A stretch of DNA of 38,145 nucleotides from a virus: positions 1 to 38,145 of the IMG/VR virus record IMGVR_UViG_3300047326_000087. One strand, given 5' to 3'. Made by a program: the position numbers and the translations under genes. This document shows positions 23,872 to 25,489 of the stretch, piece by piece (positions within the stretch are counted from its first letter, which is position 1; each line of letters opens with the position of its first letter). Under the pieces are notes generated by a model, which did no database searches, had not been told where the DNA came from, and saw nothing but the letters and a program-made list of their open reading frames with translations.

Positions 23872-24243
23872 TTATTCCGTTATCTTCCGTTTGCGTTTCT
23901 TCTTGCCAGTTCCGCCTTTTTCTTTGCGGGCCGCCTCTTCTCTGTTTTGCTTGTTGCTTTCTGCAATTCTTCTAATCAAATCATCTGCCTCTTCTTCTGT
24001 AGAGCTGCGTTGGTCTATCCCAACTCCAAGCATCTTTTTCACCGCTTCTGGGTTTATAAACGACCCTACAAGATAGCCTTGATTTTCGAGCAACTTATAC
24101 TCATCAGCGTAATCTTCTACCCAATTATGGAACATCCATGCTTTCATAATAGGATCCATTTCTTCTATCTCGGGGTCATCAGGGAGCTTCTGAAAGGTCT
24201 TACACAAGAACCATAGAAATCTATGGTCTGGCTCCTTGACTAT
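23872..24243 (-). CDS. Second chaperone ORF, made as a -1 frameshift extension (T-like)
   Basis: This frame is open from the end of the slippery run at 24243, without needing its own start. A -1 slip after residue 206 of the upstream gene continues as IVKEPDHRFLWFLCKTFQ and ends in a basic tail (GKKKRKRKITE). The fusion would be 206 + 123 = 329 aa. The only start-like codon near the front is TTG at 24207, 24 bases from the nearest SD-like AAGGAG (24232-24237), too far to work well. In lambda-like and many other tailed phages the two forms (G and GT) bind the tape measure and tube subunits during assembly. Composition is acidic in the middle and basic at the end. Confidence 0.8.
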   Translation of the reverse strand: MVKEPDHRFLWFLCKTFQKLPDDPEIEEMDPIMKAWMFHNWVEDYADEYKLLENQGYLVGSFINPEAVKKMLGVGIDQRSSTEEEADDLIRRIAESNKQNREEAARKEKGGTGKKKRKRKITE

Positions 24244-24270
24244 TTTTTTAGCTCGGCGGCGACCTCCTTT
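24209..24270 (-). promoter_or_regulatory. Programmed -1 ribosomal frameshift cassette
   Basis: Three elements are visible in the coding strand. First, a perfect SD-like AAAGGAGGT (24270-24262) inside the coding sequence. Second, 13 bases later, the heptamer A AAA AAA in the correct phase (24249-24243), immediately followed by TAG in frame 0. Third, a hairpin with arms GACCATAG (24228-24221) and CTATGGTT (24216-24209) and loop ATTT. The layout mirrors bacterial dnaX, where an internal SD upstream and a hairpin downstream stimulate slipping on A AAA AAG. The spacer to the hairpin, 14 nt, is longer than usual, so the SD may be the main stimulator. Confidence 0.85.
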
Positions 24271-24860
24271 GCTTGTTCGTTTGTGTTTATGCCGTATTTG
24301 CTTTGAGCTTCTGCTTTGAGTGCATTGAACTCATTGAATAGCTTGTTGACAACGATGTCTTCCAGATTTTCATCAATCCAAGAGAGCTTTCCATTGATAT
24401 CCTCAGTTCCAATGACATCTGATATTGGGTGTCCATCAATGTGAGAGATTGAGCGAGCAAGCTGCTGGCGACGGGCTTCGTAGGAAGCTTCGAGTTGAGT
24501 TTCTACCACCGAGAAAGTGGCGATAGAAGCCTCGCGAGCTTCGAAAGCTTTCAGGGTGCGGAGAGTGAAAGTATGGTCTCCGAGCTTAACATCACGAGTC
24601 ATTCGACCAATGTTGGCAAGGATTTCGATTCGTTTCTTGGCATCGGGATTGATACGCGGACCGTGAGCGATTTCTTGTGCTTTAGCGGCTCGTGCTTGGC
24701 GTATAGATGCCTCGATATCGGAAGGCGACTGTGGTGGCTGAGTCGGAGCTTGGGAAGCGGCGAATTGCTCTACTTCACCCTCTGGGGCTCCAACATTGAA
24801 TTCACGCATCTGAGGGTTTGGAACGGTCTTATTGAAGGAAGAGCTGGTAAAAGTAGCCAT
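24240..24860 (-). CDS. Tail assembly chaperone (G-like), 206 aa
   Basis: The supported start is ATG 24860, with AAGG ten bases upstream and a typical soluble N-terminus (MATFTSSSFNKTVPNPQMRE). The frame continues 53 codons further to 25019, but that part runs through non-coding palindromes and encodes a hydrophobic, implausible leader, so I reject it. The protein has a Pro/Gln/Ala-rich linker (about 30-60) and then a helical body (KKRIEILANIGRMTRD, EASYEARRQQLARSISHIDG). It ends AAELKK at a TAG directly after seven A residues in the coding strand. Position between tube and tape measure, together with the frameshift cassette, makes this the short chaperone form. It is the first gene after the terminator and IS gap. 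Confidence 0.85.
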   Translation of the reverse strand: MATFTSSSFNKTVPNPQMREFNVGAPEGEVEQFAASQAPTQPPQSPSDIEASIRQARAAKAQEIAHGPRINPDAKKRIEILANIGRMTRDVKLGDHTFTLRTLKAFEAREASIATFSVVETQLEASYEARRQQLARSISHIDGHPISDVIGTEDINGKLSWIDENLEDIVVNKLFNEFNALKAEAQSKYGINTNEQAKEVAAELKK

Positions 24861-24940
24861 AATTTGAGTGCCTTGTATAATGTTGGAATGGTCTTGCAAT
24901 AGAGATATAACGCGAGAGAAAAAGGAATGTCTTGCAATTG
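24861..24940 (-). promoter_or_regulatory. Candidate promoter/operator region with a direct repeat
   Basis: The leader of the chaperone gene holds two near-identical copies of ATTGCAAGACATTCC (24938-24924, and 24900-24885 with one extra C), 39 bases apart start to start. TTATAT lies between them, and TATACA lies 14 bases after the second TTGCAA. Spacings are not ideal for a sigma-70 promoter. A promoter here would make sense because a terminator-like hairpin ends the sheath/tube unit upstream. Confidence 0.25.
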
Positions 24941-24991
24941 GATGCGGAAATATGAGCAGATAGGGGTTAACAATGAGTAGCGAGTCAATTA

Positions 24992-25012
24992 CCACCAGCA
25001 CAAGGCTGGTGG
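24992..25012. repeat. Palindrome, left end of IS remnant
   Basis: Perfect 8-bp arms with the 5-base loop ACAAG. It matches the design and loop of the palindrome at 25366-25386. A TTAC tetranucleotide overlaps its left edge (24989-24992); the same word is the target of IS608, but this may be chance. Confidence 0.8.
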
Positions 25013-25094
25013 CTTGCATCTGAAGACTTCTCGATGCATTCGGCTAATTGACATATAGCCTGCTGTGCCTTCGGTTTGACCGCAGCACAGATGA

Positions 25095-25347
25095 GGTTAT
25101 TGCGAATATTCTTGGCAAACATATAACGAAAACCATTGCCAACACGAAATTGCCTACCATATTATATTCTGCACAAAATACCGACATAAGGTCATTGTGG
25201 ATGCGGTGGAAATAGAATTAAAGAAAATACTGGCAGAAAAAGTTCTGGGGAAGTGGTCTCTGGTCAAGAAGCACCTATTATGGTGCTGTAGGGCATGTCT
25301 CGGAAGATACTGTTAAGAAATATATTGAAGATCAACAATCACATTAA
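25095..25347 (+). pseudogene. tnpA: IS200/IS605 TnpA (Y1 HUH transposase) remnant, internally deleted and frameshifted
   Basis: Frame 1 from about 25122 reads YNENHCQHEIAYHIIFCTKY and then RHKVIVDAVEIELKKILAEK (to 25241), the N-terminal part of Y1 transposases (YHxxFxTKYR). A different frame from 25246 reads WGSGLWSRSTYYGAVGHVSE, then DTVKKYIEDQQSH and TAA at 25345-25347, the family C-terminus. The Tyr of YIEDQ (25321-25323) and its Gln (25333-25335) correspond to the catalytic Tyr and metal-ligand Gln of IS608 TnpA. The middle, including the HUH metal site, is gone (roughly 60 residues from family length about 130-155). A TGA at 25092-25094 sits upstream and no start codon follows it. Clearly non-functional. 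Confidence 0.85.
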
Positions 25348-25365
25348 TCTCGGTCGCCAATTCAT

Positions 25366-25386
25366 CCACCACGACAAGCGTGGTGG
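25366..25386. repeat. Palindrome, right end of IS remnant
   Basis: Perfect 8-bp arms CCACCACG and CGTGGTGG with loop ACAAG, 18 bases after the tnpA stop codon, followed on the plus strand by TTTT. It is the likely right-end hairpin of the element and could also act as a weak plus-strand terminator. Confidence 0.8.
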
Positions 25387-25403
25387 TTTTCTTGGCAAGA
25401 GAT

Positions 25404-25445
25404 CATAAAATCTGAAGAGACCCGGAAGAAAACCTCCGAGTCTCT
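25404..25445 (-). terminator. Probable intrinsic terminator or attenuator after the tail tube gene
   Basis: In the transcribed strand a 12-bp stem (arms AGAGACTCGGAG and TTCCGGGTCTCT with two G-U pairs, loop GTTTTC) spans 25445-25416. It is followed by TCAGATTTTAT, so the U run begins about five bases after the stem. This lies 44 bases after the tube stop codon and would separate the sheath/tube unit from the chaperone genes. The short, displaced U run makes full termination uncertain; a processing or stabilising hairpin is the alternative. Confidence 0.55.
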
Positions 25446-25489
25446 ATAGAAAACTTTCGCTAATAAGCAAGCCGAAAAAAAACGATGAA

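Follow-up and report, generated by a model that had tools for sequence, protein, structure and literature searches.

Gene context and ends of the element

The stretch of DNA analysed (the window) is a single IMG/VR virus record of 38,145 bases, a fragment of a large-phage genome whose tail genes lie on the minus strand. In the order of that strand they encode a 934-aa sheath protein matching PHROG tail-sheath families, a 208-aa protein and, beyond the element described here, a 206-aa protein. The 208-aa and 206-aa proteins had no Pfam or PHROGs match, and gene order points to a tail tube and a tail assembly chaperone respectively. The top strand of the element is the minus strand and hence the sense of the tail operon, its left end being at 25404 and its right end at 24984 (Table 1). 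The imperfect hairpin that follows the tube gene is a possible operon terminator and was not called in a terminator scan of the window. Beyond the element, the next gene has a reading frame (24240-25019, minus strand) that stays open upstream into the right-end hairpin, with an ATG at 25019 and 53 extra codons. Relatives start at an internal MATF-type start, and the upstream extension is probably due to chance.

Table 1 Features of the element and its immediate surroundings (positions are those of the window)
Feature	Position	Strand	Basis
Imperfect hairpin downstream of the tube gene, just 5′ to the target motif	25411..25450	-	Inverted repeat I2, 81% complementary
Target motif TTTAT adjoining the left end, candidate TAM	25405..25409	-	Motif recurs at other left ends
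Whole IS605-type deletion derivative, 421 bp	24984..25404	-	Alignment to the 1,645-bp L056 element; end sequences common across copies
Left-end hairpin, ACAAG/CTTGT loop	25366..25386		Palindrome; two compensated stem pairs relative to L056
tnpA 3′ remnant (KFWGSG...KKYIEDQQSH), frameshifted relative to the 5′ remnant	25237..25347	+	Y1_Tnp match and alignment to relative
tnpA 5′ remnant (TYNENH...AYHIIFCTKYRHKVIVDAVEIELKKILAE), lacking a start codon	25117..25239	+	Y1_Tnp match and alignment to relative
tnpB 3′ remnant (...HQPCAGGN stop), doubling as predicted omega-RNA scaffold	24984..25110	-	L012 alignment block 1; fold z; covariation
Right-end hairpin, ACAAG/CTTGT loop	24992..25012		Palindrome; identical in many copies
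Phage DNA adjoining the right end on its 3′ side, putative guide position	24964..24983	-	Position; role by analogy with ISDra2

We utilized the pattern CCACCANNACAAGNNTGGTGG, allowing up to two mismatches, to search for the end hairpins and obtained two matches in the window, whereas 100 shuffles gave a mean of 0.00. The two palindromes with ACAAG loops bracket the tnpA sequence, as originally predicted. Across copies the right end starts at GTCAATTA and the DNA outside it is variable, while the left end ends in GATC followed by ATAAA, which reads TTTAT on the top strand. Among 20 left-end rows picked by eye from a loose scan the motif was ATAAA (TTTAT) in 15, ATGAA (TTCAT) in three and degenerate in two. 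In Sulfolobus islandicus, elements that carry a solo tnpB also have TTTAT at the left end, according to the available part of a published report (PMC10640517). The outer right 33 nt of the window copy are identical to those of the complete copy L056, and the outer left 59 nt, including TTTAT, differ at four positions that make up two compensated stem pairs.

The element has subterminal hairpins without terminal inverted repeats. It lies on the 3′ side of a short fixed motif, and no target duplication is seen in its flanks. Both features are hallmarks of the IS200/IS605 family. The proposed identity as an IS200/IS605 element stands, whereas the proposed extent (24992-25386), which stopped at the palindrome pair, proved too short at both ends.

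Gene remnants, complete relative and age

Pfam Y1_Tnp matched the window twice above its cut-off, at 25140-25241 (model positions 2-35, E 6.5e-8) and at 25222-25335 (model positions 84-121, E 1.0e-7). The two matches are in different frames and the middle of the model is absent, in agreement with the original description of a tnpA fragment that has lost its HUH site and shifted frame; the suggested check for TnpA similarity thus holds in two frames. The hairpin pattern found 15 viral stretches, among them a complete relative (L012, seen again as L056) on the phage contig IMGVR_UViG_3300037316_000092. This 1,645-bp element comprises an end hairpin, a 134-aa TnpA, a divergent 377-aa TnpB and a second end hairpin, its TnpA scoring above the Pfam and NCBIfam cut-offs and its TnpB above those of Cas12f1-like TNB and guided_TnpB. 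The HUH motif of the L012 TnpA, MPDHVHLF, aligns to MPDHVHLL of the solved transposase chain 2xm3, which we take to be the ISDra2 TnpA, and the KKYIEDQ tail, whose tyrosine is presumably the catalytic one, aligns to QKYIESQ of that chain. The window tnpA has lost the HUH-containing middle and the start codon, both of which are intact in L012.

The window copy corresponds to three blocks of the L012 element (83, 89 and 92% identity). Block 1 covers the right end and the 3′ end of tnpB, block 2 the tnpA 5′ part minus its GTG start, and block 3 the 3′ part of tnpA and the left end. Relative to L012 the window copy is 1,224 bp shorter, as computed by hand from the alignments. Of this, a net loss of about 1,057 bp spans tnpB and the tnpA start, and about 167 bp is missing inside tnpA, where the loss shifts the frame and an A-run is common to both sides of the junction. 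The only complete copy found in this close family is 83-92% identical to the window copy and is therefore treated as a relative rather than as the exact parent. With both ends kept and no intact reading frame of either gene the element is a non-autonomous leftover, as had been proposed, and in its size (421 bp) and end-near palindromes it resembles a PATE. We call it PATE-like only, because neither of its deletion junctions was found elsewhere in viral_contigs (0 matches each) and the 38-kb record holds a single copy; the several copies of one structure by which PATE mobility is recognised were not found.

We consider it very probable that the element derives by internal deletion from an IS605-type element and is now non-autonomous and PATE-like. 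The parent would have entered the gap downstream of the tube gene by TnpA single-strand transposition, landing 3′ of TTTAT, and would have been disabled recently by two subsequent deletions (~1.06 kb net, and ~167 bp at a short A-run microhomology). Encoding no protein for its own movement, it presumably sits inert in a tail-operon gap that tolerates inserts. Comparison of the tnpA remnants with L012 over 74 codons revealed 18 differing codons, 14 of them synonymous (pS 0.34, pN 0.038, Fisher p 2e-7). The predominance of synonymous differences suggests that most of the divergence predates the loss of the gene and that the collapse is young, judging from codon changes to which the L012 branch contributes an inseparable part.

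Alternatively, the 421-bp form may have been moved in as an active miniature element by a TnpA acting in trans, its deletions having arisen elsewhere. Both ends look competent, related phages carry short derivatives at many sites, and the 52-bp terminal-only forms of Haloquadratum are presented as possibly mobile in the available part of the report describing them (PMC3119063). However, with neither junction recurring and a single copy in the window record, we regard this course of events as unlikely. The same evidence bears on the original suggestion that the leftover could still be mobilised in trans: the intact ends fit it, and neither junction recurs in viral_contigs to support it. The proposed search for further copies likewise succeeded in part, yielding an intact relative with the palindrome pair on another phage contig but no second copy in the 38-kb record.

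The predicted omega-RNA scaffold

None of 200 shuffles folds as well as the minus strand of 24984-25105 (z -4.25). The structure that we evaluated is the window's own predicted fold with a pseudoknot set by eye, formed between the loop of the stem GGCTA/TAGCC and the final six bases of the element. Covariation was scored in 13 copies drawn from 19 sites, including the decayed copies L085 and L087 from the phage G005, after six sites that were short or had lost the scaffold were excluded by eye (L088, L089, L090, L092, L097 and L114). Changes on both sides were present in 17 of the 37 pairs, against a shuffle mean of 9.5 and with none of 500 shuffles as high. Across the 13 copies 90.1% of cells pair, a figure that falls to 24-48% when the partners are slid. 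All 37 pairs form in the window, by construction, and also in L056 and two copies from G002, while the two decayed G005 copies form 28 of 33 and 26 of 37. In complete copies part of the scaffold also codes for the end of TnpB, an additional constraint on this segment. An Rfam scan of the element returned no credible family, the best match having an E value of 2.2 and a score far below gathering level.

A structured and conserved scaffold composed of the tnpB 3′ end and the right end, with a pseudoknot, is characteristic of an omega-RNA, and the modelled fold indicates that the retained part of tnpB contains such a scaffold in full, with covarying stems. The ISDra2 omega-RNA also contains a pseudoknot (PMC10097598), and its guide is supplied by the sequence that flanks the right end (PMC8612924), as described in the available portions of these reports. 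In the window element the analogous guide would be read from the minus strand immediately below 24984. In principle a trans-acting TnpB could draw a guide RNA from the window scaffold, and a TnpA acting in trans could excise the element. The result provides a covariation-supported guide-RNA scaffold for this IS605 family; if the scaffold works in trans it would constitute a selfish guide without a nuclease, and if not, the element is a clean example of ordinary decay.

It is conceivable that the element persists as a protein-free guide-RNA element, co-transcribed with the tail genes. The tail transcript would then yield an omega-RNA with the adjacent phage DNA as its guide, and a TnpB borrowed from copies in the huge-phage lineage or from the host would cut element-free copies at TTTAT plus the guide target, thus maintaining the insertion. 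If so, a gutted transposon would still drive its own inheritance through the cutting of element-free tail loci. Such a role is consistent with the folding and the covariation described above, with the pseudoknot, which adjoins the guide position as in the ISDra2 omega-RNA, and with the shared sense of the element and the tail genes. The young age of the collapse means, however, that an intact scaffold needs no selection, and other short derivatives have lost the scaffold partly or wholly (L088, L110 and single-hairpin copies). Moreover, no TnpB was seen within the 38-kb fragment, and the predicted target, equivalent to an empty site or donor joint of TTTAT and the guide-position sequence, had 0 matches in viral_contigs. 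On balance we judge a guide-RNA element of this kind to be quite improbable, on what is a modelled structure. Selection after the collapse was rejected as an explanation for the intact scaffold, the tnpA pieces being equally well preserved at the protein level.

Empty sites, distribution and known systems

In the window 629 bp separate the tube gene from the next gene, or 208 bp when the element is left out. The corresponding gap in relatives, read from ORFs, measures 143 bp (L004) and 177 bp (L005); that of the 353-kb phage G005 (L098) is about 132 bp. The gap of L006, at about 1.08 kb, is occupied by a GH25 lysozyme-like gene (L006:4236-5069), so that different inserts seem to be accepted at this place. 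Three of the four relatives thus have no insert and the fourth a different one, the outcome anticipated for the tube-chaperone gap in the original prediction, although the relatives are too diverged here for a base-by-base comparison of the empty site. These relatives also bear on the suggestion that the sequence has been domesticated as a spacer or terminator, with its hairpins now serving the tail operon. The left-end hairpin followed by TTTTCTT does score as terminator-like on the plus strand, but the tail genes run on the other strand, a single site of this kind was found where chance gives a mean of 1.3, and the relatives manage without the element, which makes domestication highly improbable. 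Overall the original prediction is supported as right in kind. The tnpB 3′ remnant and the omega-RNA scaffold were absent from it, and the analysis also adds the true extent and strand, the TTTAT motif, the complete relative, the absence from related phages and the young age.

The hairpin was present in 14 of 17 records examined and DNA matches to the complete element in 15 of 18, most of these records having been chosen because they contain the hairpin. G005 (353,765 bp), whose sheath is 52% identical to that of the window, contains 17 pieces matching the element. A protein encoded on the L012 contig has homologues in four of 13 records searched (G002, G003, G005 and G009), which links several of the carriers within one lineage. 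Decayed copies are numerous in related large phages and include single-hairpin remnants, of which we identified seven in G002, G003, G004 and G005 (L020, L093, L096, L101, L103, L104 and L105), lying at distinct sites with a right-end flank on one side and a left-end flank on the other. Three of them, in different contigs (L009/L104, L011/L101 and L016/L105), have an identical 40-base core. The seven remnants are either mobile or the products of separate deletions between palindromes.

A further element copy, on a 112-kb phage contig, adjoins a tmRNA gene (L058:2387-2739, 90.4 bits). The sole intact TnpA in the 353-kb G005 (L119) lies upstream of tnpB pieces in the same direction and was judged by eye to belong to a different IS. 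The GenBank phage collection had no DNA match to the window region or the complete element, and its TnpA protein matches, in 62 records, were all below 60% identity. The hairpin pattern also occurs in 34 genome stretches, most of which look like chance matches: among the flanks listed, only those of L028, L042 and L053 have the GTCAA-type end sequence. These are three copies of a related element in one MAG of the Thermovirgaceae (presumably Synergistota), with compensated changes in hairpin and pseudoknot, and possibly hint at where the family circulates.

PATEs and core-deleted IS605-type transposons were described in Haloquadratum walsbyi in 2011, and the available part of that report also describes 52-bp terminal-only forms arising by deletion between the two palindromes (PMC3119063). 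The window element shares with these PATEs its near-terminal palindromes, the lack of terminal inverted repeats and the gutting of the transposase genes, and the phage single-hairpin copies are the same kind of product as the 52-bp forms. In H. walsbyi, as far as that text describes them, there are likewise remnants of divergent tnpA and tnpB, as C-terminal pieces only. They lie in an archaeal chromosome, whereas the window copy belongs to a large-phage lineage and retains a tnpA 5′ piece together with the whole predicted guide-RNA scaffold (PMC3119063). Decayed IS605 copies of Halanaerobium hydrogeniformans likewise have divergent tnpA and tnpB and a tnpA relic made of end pieces only, the commonest (type 5) consisting of the first 63 and last 59 nt, and one PATE-like copy reduced to its ends is described in the accessible part of the report (PMC7290912). 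There tnpB is often long, while the window retains only its 3′ end (PMC7290912).

The comparison with ISDra2, drawn from the portions of two reports available, points to a left-end target motif that also serves as TAM (a candidate here) and, by analogy, to a guide RNA built from the tnpB 3′ end and the right end with its guide taken from the flank (PMC8612924, PMC10097598). In ISDra2 (PMC10097598), as in the fold predicted here, a pseudoknot joins the scaffold to the bases just before the guide. ISDra2 differs in its TTGAT motif, in place of the TTTAT of the window family, in a gene order that is not divergent, and in having TnpA and TnpB where the window copy has no protein genes (PMC8612924, PMC10097598). 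As the decay of IS605 elements into such forms is already documented, the novelty is modest: this is a known type of transposon decay, here in an uncultured huge-phage lineage, with one IS605 family caught at several stages, the complete copy at one extreme, single-hairpin scars at the other and two-gene remnants in between.
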